Assembly: GCF_022606355.1 (NCBI RefSeq)
Contig: NZ_JAHHZQ010000001.1
Coordinates: forward strand, 372,001 to 436,000
Length of the DNA stretch: 64,000 nt
DNA from: Leifsonia shinshuensis
Lineage (GTDB): Bacteria > Actinomycetota > Actinomycetes > Actinomycetales > Microbacteriaceae
Direction of reading: 5' to 3'
Positions 1 through 5,932 of this stretch are shown here, piece by piece. Numbering within the stretch: the first letter of the stretch is position 1; each line of letters opens with the position of its first letter. The notes under the pieces were generated by a model. That model saw only the letters and a list, made by a program, of their open reading frames with translations. It ran no database searches and had not been told where the DNA came from. The position numbers and the translations under genes were made by a program.

Positions 1-115
1 GGTGGACGCCGCCGGCTGGTTCCCGATCGAGACGGCCCGCACGAAACTGGCGAAAGGGCAGCGGCCCATTCTGGATGCGCTGCTGCGCCGTCTGAATGAC
101 ATCCAAGATCGGTAG
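1..115 (+). CDS. NUDIX hydrolase, C-terminal end (partial)
   Basis: The window opens inside a reading frame (phase starting at base 2) that ends with TAG at 113-115. The visible 37 residues contain GWFPIETARTKLAKGQRPIL, which looks like the C-terminal helix of MutT/NUDIX pyrophosphohydrolases, where a hydrophobic 'xWF' segment precedes an alanine/leucine-rich helix. The catalytic NUDIX box lies upstream of the window, so neither substrate nor activity can be judged. The stop lies 61 bases before the likely start of the next gene. Family assignment rests on this short tail only. Confidence 0.5.
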   Translation, partial: VDAAGWFPIETARTKLAKGQRPILDALLRRLNDIQDR

Positions 116-176
116 CGCGCAGAGACCCCGCTCGGACGTATCGTTGGCTGCACGTGCCGGGACGAAGGAGGAGCAG

Positions 177-566
177 GTGGCGACGAAGAAGAAGGCTGAG
201 AAAGAGGCCGAGAAGGCCCTGATCACCGCGCGGGCCGCGGTCGACGAGGCCCAGCGCCTGGTCAAGAAGCTCGACAAGAAGACCCGCAAAGAGGCGGACG
301 ACCTGGCCGCAGCGCTCGAACAGGCTGCGAAGGACGCGAAGAAGGCCGTGCAGCGCGCGCGGAAGACCGCGGAGCAGGCGGCGAAGGATGCCAAGCAGAA
401 GGCGCAGACCGCCAGGGAGAAGGCGCGCACCGCGGCCTCCGTGCCTGCCGCGAGCACCGGCATCCCGACCTTCCGCGATCTGCGCGACCGGGCGAAGGCG
501 CAGGGCATCCAGGGCTACTCGCGGATGAACAAGGCGCAGCTCCTGCACGCTCTCGGCGAGGGGTAG
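177..566 (+). CDS. Lys/Ala-rich coiled-coil protein with C-terminal Rho_N-like domain
   Basis: A 129-residue protein. I chose GTG 177 because AAGGAGG lies about 5 nt upstream; an in-frame ATG at 96 would overlap the preceding gene and lacks a ribosome binding site. Residues 1 to about 90 are an almost uninterrupted Ala/Lys/Glu/Arg-rich helix, predicted coiled coil, with a positively charged histone-H1-like composition. The last ~35 residues (FRDLRDRAKAQGIQGYSRMN onward) match the Rho N-terminal/SAP-like fold, which binds nucleic acid. No membrane segment or signal peptide is present. The likely role is a small nucleic-acid-binding protein; the specific function is unknown. It sits alone, 63 bp upstream of the Pls-type synthetase start. 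Confidence 0.75.
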   Translation: MATKKKAEKEAEKALITARAAVDEAQRLVKKLDKKTRKEADDLAAALEQAAKDAKKAVQRARKTAEQAAKDAKQKAQTAREKARTAASVPAASTGIPTFRDLRDRAKAQGIQGYSRMNKAQLLHALGEG

Positions 567-595
567 GGAGTGACACCCGACGACGGCGTGTTCAC

Positions 596-622
596 CGGCC
601 GGTAACCGGCCGCTCCTACGGT
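596..622 (+). promoter_or_regulatory. Palindrome plus leaderless-type -10 box before the Pls-type synthetase
   Basis: Bases 596-612 form a palindrome with 8-bp arms CGGCCGGT and ACCGGCCG around a single A. Immediately downstream, TACGGT (617-622) fits the actinobacterial -10 pattern TAnnnT and is followed by exactly 7 nt before the GTG at 630, the spacing typical of leaderless transcripts. The palindrome would therefore lie between the -10 and -35 positions, a usual place for a repressor operator. No Shine-Dalgarno sequence precedes the GTG, which agrees with leaderless expression. The regulator is not identified. Confidence 0.45.
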
Positions 623-629
623 TGCGGCC

Positions 630-3600
630 GTGACAGACACCTCCGCGCGGCCGGCGATCCTCTCGGCGCTGGCCGCGGCGCCCCCACCGCGAACCCTGAT
701 CGACATCCTCCGCGAGCAGGCGGTGCGCAACCCTCAGGGCTCGGCGATCGAGGACGCCACGGGCGCGCTCAGCTATCGCGAACTCCTCGCGCGCGTCGTC
801 GCGACCGCTGCGCGCTTGCACGAGGCGGGCGTGCGCCGCGGCGACCGGGTCGGCGTGCGGATGACCTCCGGCAGCCGCGAGCTCTACCTCGCGATCCTCG
901 GCGTGCTCGCCGCGGGCGCCGCCTACGTGCCCGTCGACGCGGACGACCCGCAGGAGCGCGCCGACCTGGTCTTCGGCGAGGCCGGCGTGCGGGGCGTCAT
1001 CACCGACGACGGCTATCTCCCCGCCGCCTCGGCCGACGCGGTGCCCGTCGACGCGGTGGTCGCGGACGGGCCGCCCGCCGTGCCGCACGCCGTGCAGGCG
1101 GGCGATCCGCACCCGAGCACGTCGAGCCTGCCGCTGATCGAGCCTCCGACGCCGGAGGACGACGCCTGGATCATCTTCACGTCCGGCTCGACGGGGACGC
1201 CCAAGGGCGTCGCCGTGCGTCACCGGTCCGCGGCCGCCTTCGTCGACGCAGAGGCGCGCCTGTTCCTGCAGGAAGAACCCATCGGACCGGGCGATCGCGT
1301 GCTGGCCGGGCTCTCGGTCGCTTTCGACGCCTCCTGCGAGGAGATGTGGCTCGCCTGGGGCCACGGCGCGTGCCTGGTGCCGGCGCCCCGCTCGCTCGTG
1401 CGCACCGGCATGGACCTCGGCCCGTGGCTCGCCGCCCGCCGGATCTCGGTCGTGTCGACGGTCCCCACGCTCGCCGCCCTCTGGCCGACCGACGCGCTCG
1501 ACACGGTCCGGCTGCTGATCTTCGGCGGTGAGGCGTGTCCGCCCGAACTGGTCAACCGGCTCGCCGTGGAGGGCAGAGAGGTCTGGAACACCTACGGCCC
1601 CACCGAGGCGACCGTCGTGGCCTGCGCGAGCCTGCTCACGGCCGGCGAGCCCGTGCGGATCGGCCTTCCGCTCGACGGCTGGGACCTCGCCGTCGTCGGG
1701 CAGGACGGCTTACCGGTCGCCGACGGCGAGAGCGGGGAGCTCATCATCGGCGGTGTCGGCCTCGCCCGCTACCTCGACCCGGCGAAGGACGCCGAGAAGT
1801 ACGCGCCGTTGCCCTCGCTCGGCTGGGAGCGCGCGTATCGCAGCGGTGACCTCGTGCGGTTCGACCCGGCAGGGCTCTTCTACCTCGGCCGCGCCGACGA
1901 CCAGGTGAAGGTCGGCGGCCGGCGCATCGAGCTCGGCGAGGTGGAGGCCGCACTGCAGCAGTTGCCCGGCGTCTCCGGTGCGGCCGCGGCCGTGCGCAAG
2001 ACCGCAGCGGGCAACGACGTGCTGGTCGGCTACCTCGCCGTGCCGGAGCGTTCGCTCTTCGACCGCCGCGCCGCACTCGAGGAGCTGCGCGCCGAGCTGC
2101 CCGCCGCGCTGGTGCCGCTGTTGGCCGTCGTCGACGACCTCCCCGTGCGAACCTCCGGCAAGGTCGACAGGGCGGCGCTGCCGTGGCCGCTCGACGCCGA
2201 CGCCGACGACACCCCCGACCTCGACCCGGTCTCCGAAGCGCTCGCCGTCGACTGGAAGAGCGTCCTCGGCCTGCCGGTGGGCGGGCTCGACGACAACTTC
2301 TTCGACCTCGGCGGAGGATCCTTGGCCGCGGCCCAGCTGGTCTCCCTGGTACGCAGACGCCACCCCGACATCACGGTCGCCGACATCTACGCGCACCCCC
2401 GTTTCGGAGCGCTCGCCGCTGCTCTGGCCGAGAGCTCGCCATCGGCATCCGCCGCCTCCACGCACGTCGTGCCGCCGACCCCGCGACGGATGCAGGTGCT
2501 GCAGACGCTGCTCGGCGTCCCGCTCTTCATCCTCAACGGGATCCGCTGGCTGCTCTACCTGCTGACCGCCGCCGCGGTGCTCCGGCCGTTCGGCGGTTTC
2601 GACTTCCTGCCCGCGGTGAACGCGGTCTGGCTCATCGTCGGGCTGCTCGTCTTCGTCACGCCGTGGGGGCGGATGGCGATCGCCGTGGCCGCCGCGCGCC
2701 TCCTCCTGATCGGCGTGAAAGCAGGCGACTACCCGCGCGGCGGCGGCGTGCACCTGCGCCTGTGGCTCGCCGAACAGGTCGCCCACCAGATCGGTGCGGC
2801 GAGCCTGGCCGGTGCGCCGTGGATCAGCTACTACGCCCGCGCGCTCGGAGCGACCGTCGACCGCGGGGTCGACCTGCACGCACTGCCACCCGTCACCGGG
2901 ATGCTGCGCATCGGCGCCGGCGCCTCCATCGAGCCGGAGGTCGACCTGTCCGGGTACTGGATCGACGGCGACCTGGTACGCATCGGCGAGATCCGGATCG
3001 GCGCAGGCAGCTCTGTCGGCGCTCGCAGCTCGCTGATGCCGGGGGCGAAGATCGGTCGCGACGCGACCGTCGCACCGGGCTCGGCGGTCTTCGGCCGGGT
3101 TCCCGCAGGACAGAACTGGGCCGGATCGCCCGCCGTGCGGGTCGGCAAGGCGCGCGACTGGTGGCCCGCAGCGCGGCCGCAGCGCCGCACGCGCTGGGTC
3201 GCCGCCTACGCCGCGGCGTCCTTGGTCGTCTCCCTCGTGCCGGTGGTCGCCCTGGCGATCGGCGGTCTGGTGGTGGCGGCCTTCACGCGCGGCGCGGCCC
3301 ACCTGTCCGACGCCGTTCCGGGAGCGCTGGCTGCCGTCGTGCCCGCCACGCTCGCCTCCGGCATCGTTCTGGCCGGACTCGTCGTGGTGCTGGTCCGACT
3401 CCTCGGCCTCGGCATCCACGAGGGTGTGTACCCGGTGCGCAGCAGGACCGGCTGGCAGGTCTGGTCGACGGAGCGCCTGCTCGACATGGCGCGCACCGTT
3501 CTGTTCCCGCTGTACTCGAGCCTGTTCACCCCTATCTGGCTGCGGATGCTCGGCGCCCGTGTCGGCCGTGACGTCGAGGCCTCCACTGTGCTGCTGCTGC

Positions 3601-4604
3601 CGGCGATGACCAAGATCCGTGACGGCGCGTTCCTGGCCGACGACACGCTCGTGGCGTCGTACGAGCTCGGCGGCGGCTACGTCCGGGTGGCGGAGGCCGA
3701 GATCGGCACCAGGGCCTTCCTCGGCAACTCCGGCATGGCAGGAGGCGGCAACAGGGTGCCGCGCGACGGGCTGGTCGCCGTGCTTTCGGTGGCACCCCGC
3801 AAGGCGAAGGCCGGGTCGTCCTGGCTCGGTTCGCCGCCGGTGAAGCTGCGCAGGCGCGCTCAGGACGCCGACCTCTCGCGCACGTTCGAGCCGCCCGCCG
3901 CCTTGCGCGTCGCTCGCACGGCGTGGGAGCTGCTGCGCATCGTCCCGGTGTTCGTCACGTGTGCGATCGGGCTGGCGGTTCTCCTGGTGCTGGGGGCGCT
4001 CTCGGAGAGCCTGGGAGTCGTCTGGGCGATCGTGCTGAGCGGGCCGGTCCTCCTCGCCGCGGGCGCGGTGGCGGCGACGGTCAGCACCGCGGCCAAGTGG
4101 ATCCTGCTCGGCAGACTGAAGCCGGGCGAGCATCCGCTCTGGTCGTCGTTCATCTGGCGCAGCGAGGTCTCGGACACCTTCACCGAGATGGTGGCAGCCC
4201 CCTGGTTCGCCTGGTCGGCGGCCGGTACCCCCGCCCTGGTGTGGTGGCTGCGCAGTCTCGGCGCCCGCATCGGCAGCGGTGTGTGGATCGACAGCTACTG
4301 GCTGCCGGAAGCCGATCTGGTCGAGCTGGGCGACGCATCCACGGTCAACCGGGGCTGCGTCGTGCAGACGCACCTGTTCCATGATCGAATCATGAGCATG
4401 GACGAGGTGATCATCGAGCGCGGCGGGACACTGGGGCCGCACAGCGTCATCCTCCCCGCCGCAGCGATCGGCGCCGATGCGACCGTCGGACCGGCATCCC
4501 TGGTGATGCGAGGCGAGACCGTTCCCGACCGGAGCCGCTGGAGCGGCAACCCGATCGGTCCGTGGCGAGACGTGACGGTGCGCGAGTACCGTGCGGTGCG
4601 ATGA
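630..4604 (+). CDS. Pls/PosA-family NRPS-like poly(amino acid) synthetase
   Basis: A 1,324-residue protein, close to the length of epsilon-poly-L-lysine synthetase (about 1,320). An adenylation domain (about 15-520) has A3 TSGSTGTPKGV near 183, A5 NTYGPTE near 320, A8 GRADDQVKVGGRRIELGE near 420, and the A10 lysine in RTSGKVDR near 511. A carrier domain follows with DNFFDLGGGSLAA (phosphopantetheine serine near 565). The rest is membrane segments alternating with three left-handed beta-helix (hexapeptide-like) regions at about 790-830, 990-1075 and 1210-1315. There is no classical condensation or thioesterase domain. This architecture is that of Pls, in which the C-terminal tandem domains form isopeptide bonds iteratively at the membrane. 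By hand the specificity residues read D-A-E-S-I-G-T-V-V-K, suggesting lysine or a similar cationic amino acid. The product is not proven. The gene overlaps the next by 4 nt. Confidence 0.9.
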   Translation: MTDTSARPAILSALAAAPPPRTLIDILREQAVRNPQGSAIEDATGALSYRELLARVVATAARLHEAGVRRGDRVGVRMTSGSRELYLAILGVLAAGAAYVPVDADDPQERADLVFGEAGVRGVITDDGYLPAASADAVPVDAVVADGPPAVPHAVQAGDPHPSTSSLPLIEPPTPEDDAWIIFTSGSTGTPKGVAVRHRSAAAFVDAEARLFLQEEPIGPGDRVLAGLSVAFDASCEEMWLAWGHGACLVPAPRSLVRTGMDLGPWLAARRISVVSTVPTLAALWPTDALDTVRLLIFGGEACPPELVNRLAVEGREVWNTYGPTEATVVACASLLTAGEPVRIGLPLDGWDLAVVGQDGLPVADGESGELIIGGVGLARYLDPAKDAEKYAPLPSLGWERAYRSGDLVRFDPAGLFYLGRADDQVKVGGRRIELGEVEAALQQLPGVSGAAAAVRKTAAGNDVLVGYLAVPERSLFDRRAALEELRAELPAALVPLLAVVDDLPVRTSGKVDRAALPWPLDADADDTPDLDPVSEALAVDWKSVLGLPVGGLDDNFFDLGGGSLAAAQLVSLVRRRHPDITVADIYAHPRFGALAAALAESSPSASAASTHVVPPTPRRMQVLQTLLGVPLFILNGIRWLLYLLTAAAVLRPFGGFDFLPAVNAVWLIVGLLVFVTPWGRMAIAVAAARLLLIGVKAGDYPRGGGVHLRLWLAEQVAHQIGAASLAGAPWISYYARALGATVDRGVDLHALPPVTGMLRIGAGASIEPEVDLSGYWIDGDLVRIGEIRIGAGSSVGARSSLMPGAKIGRDATVAPGSAVFGRVPAGQNWAGSPAVRVGKARDWWPAARPQRRTRWVAAYAAASLVVSLVPVVALAIGGLVVAAFTRGAAHLSDAVPGALAAVVPATLASGIVLAGLVVVLVRLLGLGIHEGVYPVRSRTGWQVWSTERLLDMARTVLFPLYSSLFTPIWLRMLGARVGRDVEASTVLLLPAMTKIRDGAFLADDTLVASYELGGGYVRVAEAEIGTRAFLGNSGMAGGGNRVPRDGLVAVLSVAPRKAKAGSSWLGSPPVKLRRRAQDADLSRTFEPPAALRVARTAWELLRIVPVFVTCAIGLAVLLVLGALSESLGVVWAIVLSGPVLLAAGAVAATVSTAAKWILLGRLKPGEHPLWSSFIWRSEVSDTFTEMVAAPWFAWSAAGTPALVWWLRSLGARIGSGVWIDSYWLPEADLVELGDASTVNRGCVVQTHLFHDRIMSMDEVIIERGGTLGPHSVILPAAAIGADATVGPASLVMRGETVPDRSRWSGNPIGPWRDVTVREYRAVR

Positions 4605-5932
4605 CAACGGCTCCCACCAGCGCAGACGCCGCTCCCACCGCGTCGCACGCCTACCTTCCGCGCTCTGGCACGGACGACTTCTCCGTGATCTCCTACGATC
4701 TCGACCTCGGGTACAAGGTCGCCACCAACCGGCTCGACGCCACCGCCGTGATCCGGGGTCGGGCCAACGTCGCGCTCTCGGCCATCTCGCTCGACCTGGT
4801 GCACCTGCGCGCCAAGCGCGTCCGGCTCGACGGCGACAAGCGCACCCGGTTCACGCAGTCGCCCACGCACGTGCGGGTGAAGCCGGCCAGGCCCATCCCG
4901 GCCGGGGGCGAGTTCACGGTCGAGATCGCCTACGACGGCTCCCCCGTCCCGCGGCGCACCCGCTGGGGCACCCTGGGCTGGGAGGAACTGAGCGACGGCG
5001 TCATCGTCGCATCTCAGCCGTCGGGCGCGCCCACGTGGTTCCCGTGCAACGACCGGCCCTCCGACAAGGCCGCCTACCGCATCACGATCACGACCGAGCA
5101 GCCGTACACGGTGCTCGCGACCGGCGAGCTCGTGGAGCACACCGTCAGCGGAGGACGCGGCACCTGGACGTTCGAGCGCACCGAACCGACCGCGACCTAC
5201 CTCGCCGCGGTGCAGATCGGCCGCTATGTGCTGGAGCCGCGCCGCAGTGACGGTGTCGAGTGGGTGATCGCCTACCCGCCCGCGCTGGCGCGACGCGTGC
5301 TGGCGGACTTCGCGCCGGTCGGCCGGATGATCGAGTGCTTCCAGGAGCGCTTCGGCCCCTACCCGTTCCCGTCGTACACCGTCGTCGTCACCGAGGACCC
5401 GCTGGAGATCCCCCTCGAGTCGCAGGGCATGGCGACGTTCGGCGCCTCCCACGTCGACGGCCGTGGAGGCTCGGAGCGCCTGATCGCGCACGAGCTCGCC
5501 CACCAGTGGTTCGGCAACAGTGTGGGCGTGGCCTCGTGGACCGACATCTGGCTGAACGAGGGCTTCGCCTGCTACGCCGAGTGGATCTGGTCCGAGTTCT
5601 CGGGCGGCGCGACGGCGAACACGCTCGCGCGCACCCACCACGCCGGCCTGCGCCTCAAGCCGAAAGACCTGGTGCTCGCCGACCCCGGCGTCGACCACAT
5701 GTTCGACGACCGCGTCTACAAGCGCGGAGCCTGCCTCCTGCACGCGCTGCGCCGCCGGCTGGGAGACGACCGGTTCTTCGCGCTGCTGCGCGGCTGGTCG
5801 GCCGCGCGTCGCTACGGGACGGCGTCGTCGGCAGACTTCGAGGCGTTCGCGGCGGGGTATTCGAACGAGCCGCTCGAGACGTTCTTCGACGCCTGGCTGC
5901 GAGAGACGCGGTTGCCGGCGTTGGGGTTGTAG
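4601..5932 (+). CDS. M1-family zinc aminopeptidase
   Basis: A 443-residue M1 metallopeptidase. The zinc motif HELAH (297-301) with the third ligand glutamate in NEGF (E320) is intact, and an ESQGMATFG segment occupies the place of the GAMEN exopeptidase loop. The N-terminal half is the beta-sandwich typical of M1 enzymes. It is shorter than full-length PepN (about 850) because the C-terminal HEAT-like domain is missing. The start is ATG 4601, whose last two bases plus A form the TGA of the synthetase gene (ATGA), so translation is coupled. No signal peptide is visible. Known epsilon-polylysine-degrading enzymes are zinc aminopeptidases, so trimming or degrading the polymer is a reasonable inference; ordinary peptide turnover remains possible. 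Confidence 0.88.
   Translation: MTTAPTSADAAPTASHAYLPRSGTDDFSVISYDLDLGYKVATNRLDATAVIRGRANVALSAISLDLVHLRAKRVRLDGDKRTRFTQSPTHVRVKPARPIPAGGEFTVEIAYDGSPVPRRTRWGTLGWEELSDGVIVASQPSGAPTWFPCNDRPSDKAAYRITITTEQPYTVLATGELVEHTVSGGRGTWTFERTEPTATYLAAVQIGRYVLEPRRSDGVEWVIAYPPALARRVLADFAPVGRMIECFQERFGPYPFPSYTVVVTEDPLEIPLESQGMATFGASHVDGRGGSERLIAHELAHQWFGNSVGVASWTDIWLNEGFACYAEWIWSEFSGGATANTLARTHHAGLRLKPKDLVLADPGVDHMFDDRVYKRGACLLHALRRRLGDDRFFALLRGWSAARRYGTASSADFEAFAAGYSNEPLETFFDAWLRETRLPALGL

Follow-up and report, generated by a model that had tools for sequence, protein, structure and literature searches.

A candidate phosphate-starvation promoter in front of a predicted epsilon-poly-L-lysine operon of Leifsonia shinshuensis

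The reason for which bacteria produce polycationic homopoly(amino acid)s has been described as unclear in recent work (PMC9606270; papers are cited here by PubMed Central number). Two overlapping genes at positions 630 to 5,932 of a 64,000-nucleotide stretch of Leifsonia shinshuensis DNA (assembly GCF_022606355.1, contig NZ_JAHHZQ010000001.1, positions 372,001 to 436,000; hereafter the window) raise this question for the Microbacteriaceae: which polymer would they make, and what would switch them on? The first gene, pls, encodes a predicted epsilon-poly-L-lysine synthetase, P0001, and the second an M1 zinc aminopeptidase, P0002. An earlier note, made from the DNA letters, had seen in them a make-and-trim unit standing for a new producer group or a new polymer. 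The gene pair seems instead to be an ordinary operon for making and degrading a known polymer, the natural antimicrobial epsilon-polylysine, and the lead that it offers lies in a phosphate-type switch in front of it and in a depolymerase seemingly kept inside the cell. We consider it likely that the locus as a whole is a pls-pldII operon with a cytosolic M1 enzyme and, in Microbacteriaceae, a phosphate-starvation switch.

The region upstream of pls

Upstream of pls we observed a direct repeat followed by a putative -10 element (Table 1). In Streptomyces coelicolor the PHO box is described as two 11-nt direct-repeat units in which GTTCACC is the most conserved part (PMC4415409). The repeat of the window has the same motif and spacing and, in its own genome, the motif also stands before pstS; it differs in that it precedes a polymer synthetase and that its second unit is degenerate. 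In an alignment of 16 same-genus sequences, the columns without variation 5' of pls are those of GTTCACC and the three fixed letters of TANNNT. The transcript is probably leaderless, the start codon (630) lying 7 nt beyond the -10 element.

This geometry was examined in 85 representatives (less than 80% identity) drawn from 176 loci. A GTTCACC pair matching at 11 or more of 14 positions on the gene's strand was found with a gap of 4 in 29 representatives and with each other gap from 0 to 12 in at most nine, while a reversed-template control gave such a box in 1 of 85. At 12/14 the counts were 15 for gap 4, two or fewer for other gaps and none for the reversed template. The opposite strand, at 11/14 or better, also has a small gap-4 excess (6/85). 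Behind boxes scoring at least 10, TANNNT occurs at +9 in 19 of the 85 and, an 11-bp repeat unit later, at +20 in 8; no other offset between 0 and 24 is seen more than once. Behind boxes scoring at least 9 the corresponding numbers are 21, 12 and no more than 3, and in these counts the +9 and +20 peaks may record one -10 element twice. At this lower box score of 9 or more, the +9 arrangement is present in 20 of 45 Microbacteriaceae representatives, in one Humibacillus and in none of the 39 others, 13 Streptomycetaceae included. Unlike the pls of the window, none of the 13 representatives of the Streptomycetaceae clade defined below has a box of 11/14 or better on the gene's strand. Boxes lacking a -10 element at +9 precede pls in further loci, for example in Occultella (14/14) and at two Rhodococcus loci (12/14).

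Elsewhere in the same genome (4.78 Mb) the motif is found at phosphate genes. The exact GTTCACCNNNNGNTNACC occurs at three places, pls among them, and with up to one mismatch at 28 places against 5 for a reversed control. The sole perfect GTTYACC-N4-GTTYACC of the genome begins 112 nt before the start of pstS, whose product is above the TIGR00975 cut-off. A second exact GTTCACCNNNNGNTNACC begins 91 nt before an oxidoreductase gene of TIGR03364, which we take to be a phosphonate-linked family, and the third overlaps a gene. Ten proteins beside nine of the own-genome sites were scanned. Apart from PstS and the TIGR03364 protein they comprise CcsB, a tryptophan dioxygenase, an LCP transferase and five proteins that matched no family.

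The genus pattern GTTCACCNNNNSKYHACC matched 126 places in the same-genus genomes against 1 for a reversed control. It precedes pls in 23 of the 26 pls-bearing genomes (it is missing in G011, G013 and G022), a count that is partly by construction since the pattern was shaped on the genus alignment; the informative parts of the scan are the contrast of 126 with 1 and the neighbours of the places outside pls. Thirty GTTCACCNNNNSKYHACC loci were returned and 23 examined, six pls loci and L234 being left out; 16 of them gave called open reading frames. From these, ten neighbour proteins were scanned, nine of them picked for an in-phase TANNNT. Three are TIGR03364 proteins and two PhnC, all above cut-off; one PhnX-like and three aminoethylphosphonate-binding-like proteins remained below it, and the neighbour at L278 was unmatched. 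TANNNT stands at +31 in 13 of the 23 examined loci; as +31 is 9 plus two repeats, these loci share the phase of pls. The two same-genus genomes that have no pls, G003 and G027, each hold one PHO-type site (L279 and L303), about 280 nt before a frame that by eye resembles TIGR03364.

GTTCACC-like units with an 11-nt period, and the same motif at phosphate genes of the genome and the genus, are the sequence marks expected of a Pho regulon. We therefore read the pls promoter as a Pho-regulon promoter in which the box would replace the -35 element. The operon type and its occurrence in Microbacterium are known. A pls promoter with a PHO-type box was not found in print: the open-licence literature yielded no paper that describes such a box there and, for polylysine in Microbacterium, PMC8117764 only, the passages of PMC9195005 and PMC10012588 report none, and the word 'phosphate' is absent from the main text of PMC8117764.

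Architecture and predicted product of the synthetase

The whole of TIGR02353 ('Pls/PosA family non-ribosomal peptide synthetase', 695 positions) is matched in P0001 with 719.7 bits against a cut-off of 423.1. The protein has a PF00501 adenylation (A) domain, which also scores 351 bits with TIGR01733 (cut-off 317), and a PF00550 carrier; condensation and thioesterase families were not reported by the whole-protein Pfam scan. For the terminal region, Pfam finds a single hexapeptide stretch (PF00132, residues 788-820), and an AlphaFold model of residues 601-1324 (built from 39 sequences; mean pLDDT, 82.5) shows a beta-helix-like region behind each of three long helix pairs. The top PDB fold matches of this model are hexapeptide acyltransferases, covering part of its length. 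Six membrane helices, read from the model and the fold search without a dedicated membrane predictor, would thus divide three acetyltransferase-like domains, as in Pls/PosA enzymes. The Pls layout that the earlier note had described (A domain, carrier, membrane segments, three beta-helix-like domains, no C or TE domain) is borne out by Pfam, TIGR02353 and the model, and so is the near-equal length to epsilon-polylysine synthetase, the S. albulus-like enzymes of loci L051 and L053 having 1304 and 1308 residues. By its A domain, its carrier and its TIGR02353 match, P0001 is classed as a Pls/PosA-type cationic poly(amino acid) synthetase.

Table 1. Features of the pls locus, in window positions
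Feature	Coordinates	Strand	Details
PHO-box-like direct repeat GTTCACC-GGCC-GGTAACC, 11-bp period	590..607	+	alignment, motif scans
putative -10 element TACGGT (TANNNT), 9 nt past the box	617..622	+	alignment, phase counts
pls (predicted epsilon-poly-L-lysine synthetase, P0001)	630..4604	+	GTG start, 1324 aa
adenylation domain, residues 11-522	660..2195	+	pocket D233 A234 E237 S276 I297 G299 T321 V329 V330 K511
carrier (thiolation) domain, residues 541-599	2250..2426	+	PF00550
membrane helix pair 1, residues 619-692	2484..2705	+	AlphaFold model
C1 beta-helix-like region, residues 760-840	2907..3149	+	AlphaFold model, fold search, PF00132 at 788-820
membrane helix pair 2, residues 855-926	3192..3407	+	AlphaFold model
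C2 beta-helix-like region, residues 986-1066	3585..3827	+	AlphaFold model
membrane helix pair 3, residues 1104-1160	3939..4109	+	AlphaFold model
C3 beta-helix-like region, residues 1213-1311	4266..4562	+	AlphaFold model
pldII homologue (P0002), two-domain M1 zinc aminopeptidase	4601..5932	+	ATG start, 443 aa

The earlier note had asked for a search of the A domain against characterised Pls proteins. The closest solved relative proved to be 7wew, the A domain of an epsilon-poly-L-lysine synthase (612 bits; 70.3% identity across 350 aligned residues). Read from the alignment, with pocket positions assigned by what we take to be the GrsA numbering, the ten-residue pocket is DAESIGTVVK in P0001 and 7wew alike. 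Among 225 aligned rows, which include 7wew itself and repeated copies of one gene, 216 have DAESIGTVVK, three DAESVGTVVK, three DFECLSVVTK and two DAESIGTVIK, and one has no residues there; this uniformity is partly selected, since the 80 rows from named genomes were found by A-domain patterns, the rows of the family sample having been found through the terminal region. PosA, the delta-poly-L-ornithine synthetase of Acinetobacter baumannii, belongs to the same family and has the same architecture; its pocket differs (DMEHNGTVSK), and position 2 is described as Ala in Pls enzymes and as Phe in enzymes for diaminopropionate or diaminobutyrate (PMC10522769). L-lysine is the predicted substrate of P0001, and on the identity of its pocket with that of 7wew, shared by nearly all aligned rows, we reject the new polymer that had been suggested.

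A second Pls/PosA-type synthetase was seen in 3 of the 117 Microbacteriaceae genomes of the family sample that are positive for the family (L205 2709-6929 on the minus strand, L209 and L210). These second copies are about 30% identical to P0001, have the pocket DFECLSVVTK and lack an M1 neighbour; three open frames next to the copy of L205 gave no NCBIfam match at E 1e-15.

Since P0001 has a carrier domain, a phosphopantetheinyl transferase is required, and three candidates above the ACPS cut-off were found in the genome; close to a candidate, at G000:C6:25833-38127, lie three A domains of the nonribosomal peptide synthetase type. Just 5' of pls, frame 96-566 (+) encodes 156 Lys/Ala-rich residues with no Pfam match, and many of the 16 aligned same-genus sequences likewise have its end 5' of pls.

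The coupled M1 peptidase and its relatives

P0002 is a short M1 metallopeptidase (PF17900 and PF01433). Its model (mean pLDDT 93.9) superposes over nearly the whole length, with a TM of 0.87, on the two-domain M1 enzyme of Deinococcus radiodurans (6a8z, 6ifg), which is likewise a short M1 protein, lacking the C-terminal domains that long M1 enzymes have, and is different in sequence (28% identity). The HEXXH residues H297, E298 and H301, together with E320, E273 and Y373, are invariant in 38 aligned sequences.

The ATG of the peptidase gene (4601-4603) overlaps the TGA of pls (4602-4604), so that the ATGA overlap pointed out by the earlier note is confirmed by the coordinates. Full-length Pls was found in 25 of 28 same-genus genomes, and the M1 gene adjoins pls in 25 of these 25, so the locus is not due to chance; pls is broken in G026 and absent from G003 and G027. 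At the broken locus, L221 (G026:C1:482000-491500), pls carries an in-frame stop and frame changes, and the PHO box and the M1 gene are retained, as if the depolymerase outlived the synthetase.

In an even sample of Microbacteriaceae, 117 of 299 genomes passed the TIGR02353 cut-off. Of the 120 places above cut-off in the sample, the 116 with an essentially complete terminal region were retrieved, together with three of the four partial ones. An M1 gene lies within 300 nt 3' of pls at 113 of the 116 loci, the three exceptions being the second copies described above, which rules out a chance neighbour. The candidate start of the M1 gene relative to the pls end is -4 at 65 of the 113 loci, -1 at 19 and neither at 29. 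The coupling of a Pls-type synthetase to an M1 aminopeptidase is thus upheld by the domains and by the conserved adjacency. A scan of named genomes gave at least 591 relatives, of which 80 were kept for analysis. Outside the Streptomycetaceae clade, M1 is adjacent at 60 of 62 named loci; of the other two, L100 is ended by a contig edge, and L128 (13447-15587, Tsukamurella) is the only uncut one at which the pair is apart, its M1 gene lying 2.1 kb downstream. In the Streptomycetaceae clade M1 is adjacent at 9 of 18 loci (L052 is cut within pls).

These clades come from a FastTree of 106 synthetases rooted on the second copies as chosen outgroup; the references from C. variabile, PDAP, PDAB and PosA are absent from it. 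The tree mostly tracks host taxonomy. Clade 1 has 18 rows, mostly Streptomycetaceae with two Micrococcaceae, and clade 2 holds 84 rows (support 87) from most other families; L114 stands alone. Among the exceptions to host taxonomy are two Streptomyces rows inside the 84-row clade, and three rows from Microbacteriaceae that are placed next to Brachybacterium and Occultella. The S. albulus-like Pls falls within the same ingroup as P0001, with the second copies far off. A recent transfer of pls was not seen, P0001 being placed with its own genus and family.

How new is the pair? In S. albulus, pls and pldII have a 4-bp overlap and form one operon (PMC4361855), and PldII is an aminopeptidase, on which ground we assign the pair of the window to a pls-pldII type operon, with the same domain layout, lysine pocket, overlap and M1-type neighbour; the coupling is accordingly no novelty. 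At the S. albulus-like locus L051, the M1 protein is 43% identical to P0002 and the Pls 52.5% identical overall to P0001. The new producer group proposed by the earlier note is rejected as well: Microbacterium homologues were already listed in 2021, in a paper on the Pls of C. variabile and other coryneforms in which epsilon-polylysine was obtained from S. coelicolor carrying a coryneform Pls, and there too the coryneform Pls belongs to an operon with a peptidase (PMC8117764; compared by description).

The main difference from S. albulus concerns location. The PldII of that species is placed outside the membrane as an endo-type aminopeptidase and named as the chief epsilon-polylysine degrader (PMC9223678). 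In the Streptomycetaceae clade, the M1 protein has a twin-arginine-like segment at its N-terminus, RR followed by a hydrophobic stretch, at all nine loci with an M1 neighbour, three of which were judged by eye; P0002 has no hydrophobic or RR segment visible at its N-terminus on inspection, made without a dedicated signal predictor, and its residues 1-14 have a pLDDT below 50. The check covered 211 M1 genes, repeated copies included, and used starts that coincide with the overlap or lie close to it; for eight genes no start could be assessed. Six loci of the Streptomycetaceae clade exceeded a hydrophobicity threshold of 1.6, as did L223, the latter an artefact of a misplaced start, and no other assessed M1 protein exceeded it; the segments of L055, L061 (with an upstream start only) and L080 were added by eye, and L049 is ambiguous (score 1.3, MRRVVALL... 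from the first start). We infer that P0002 is cytosolic, and because it lacks a visible export signal we name it a PldII homologue and not PldII. The endo-type action, odd for an aminopeptidase, may come from the substrate: each residue of epsilon-polylysine has a free alpha-amine next to the scissile carbonyl, so that a two-domain M1 protein, whose S1 side is left open by the lack of a capping C-terminal domain, could attack the polymer at any point along its length.

The proposed switch and its rivals

We propose that the synthetase would activate L-lysine with ATP and load its own carrier domain, and that the membrane-anchored C1-C3 region would join lysines through their side-chain amines into epsilon-poly-L-lysine, presumably exported. 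The co-translated two-domain M1 enzyme would stay in the cytosol and degrade intracellular polymer, for self-protection or recycling. When phosphate runs short, an OmpR/PhoB-type phosphate regulator would activate the operon by binding the PHO box, which would stand where a -35 element is expected; we propose this for the genus and for further lineages of Microbacteriaceae (20 of the 45 representatives). In these bacteria, phosphate starvation probably turns on epsilon-polylysine production. That the epsilon-polylysine of Microbacteriaceae is a phosphate-starvation product, made by an operon of the Pho regulon beside pstS and the phosphonate genes, with the box replacing the -35 element and the depolymerase in the cytosol, is the reading that we favour, with some reserve.

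Several observations weigh against it. Compared with the S. coelicolor consensus the pls box scores 12 of 14, its second unit being the degenerate one. Even with the most permissive threshold, 25 of 45 Microbacteriaceae representatives and 39 of 40 from other families lack the promoter. Of the ten proteins scanned beside own-genome sites (one mismatch or none), PstS and a single TIGR03364 protein are the only ones for which a phosphorus role is plausible. C. variabile itself gave no epsilon-polylysine, so that carriage of the gene is not production (Jiang 2021, PMC8117764). Finally, a study by CRISPR interference (CRISPRi) makes the case that the chain length of the S. albulus polymer is indeed influenced by PldII (PMC9223678).

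The 11-bp repeat might also be read, in the same operon, by another OmpR-family regulator, an MtrA-like one for example, the signal then not being phosphate. OmpR-family regulators share direct-repeat sites of 10-11 bp. PhoP of Mycobacterium tuberculosis is described with 7-bp repeats and a 4-bp spacer, and many proteins of the own genome match the PhoB model, none above its cut-off. However, the same motif stands before pstS in this genome and before TIGR03364 and phnC genes in the genus, with the -10 element in the same 11-bp phase, and we regard another regulator as unlikely. Marginally less likely still is the make-and-trim idea, by which the M1 enzyme would determine or reduce how long the polymer is. 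It would agree with the translational coupling of the two genes and with their conserved adjacency, and CRISPRi of pldII in S. albulus led to polymers of more than 40 residues, one strain peaking at 44 (PMC9223678). Against it, a review states that inactivation of Pld and PldII left production and the degree of polymerisation unchanged (PMC8506220), and P0002, without a visible signal peptide, would not meet a secreted polymer. The CRISPRi study also found no gain in final yield and a lower polymer tolerance, and calls pldII pivotal for self-protection. A self-protection role fits both S. albulus sources; trimming of a secreted polymer would not suit a cytosolic enzyme.

That the synthetase makes a different cationic polymer, from ornithine, diaminobutyrate or another monomer, is very improbable: the Pls/PosA family does include such enzymes (PMC10522769) and the three second copies have their own pocket, but that of P0001 is the pocket of 7wew and differs from that of PosA. 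Finally, the polycation could have a non-antimicrobial role under phosphate stress, neutralising or packing polyanions largely in or at the cell, with the PldII homologue recycling it. The cytosolic-looking depolymerase and the phosphate-type promoter would both suit such a role, as would the absence of polymer from C. variabile cultures; Streptomyces Pls is, however, described as making and excreting its product (PMC8117764), and we hold this role improbable.

The starvation-induced operon that we favour bears on the silence of C. variabile, whose pls was the one coryneform gene that Jiang and colleagues examined in its own host. There, the two-stage acid regime of Streptomyces was used and a missing trigger was suspected (PMC8117764); phosphate limitation is what we propose as this trigger in Microbacteriaceae. 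The sequence favours the low-phosphate growth suggested earlier, and a phosphate-type pls promoter offers a concrete, cheap trigger to test together with a physiological context. If the depolymerase indeed lacks an export signal, its task would lie in protection or recycling inside the cell and no longer outside it. If the proposal is true, the 'silent' coryneform pls genes would be silent because the bacteria were grown with ample phosphate, and the polymer would serve phosphorus stress, by killing neighbours for their phosphate or by binding phosphate polyanions.

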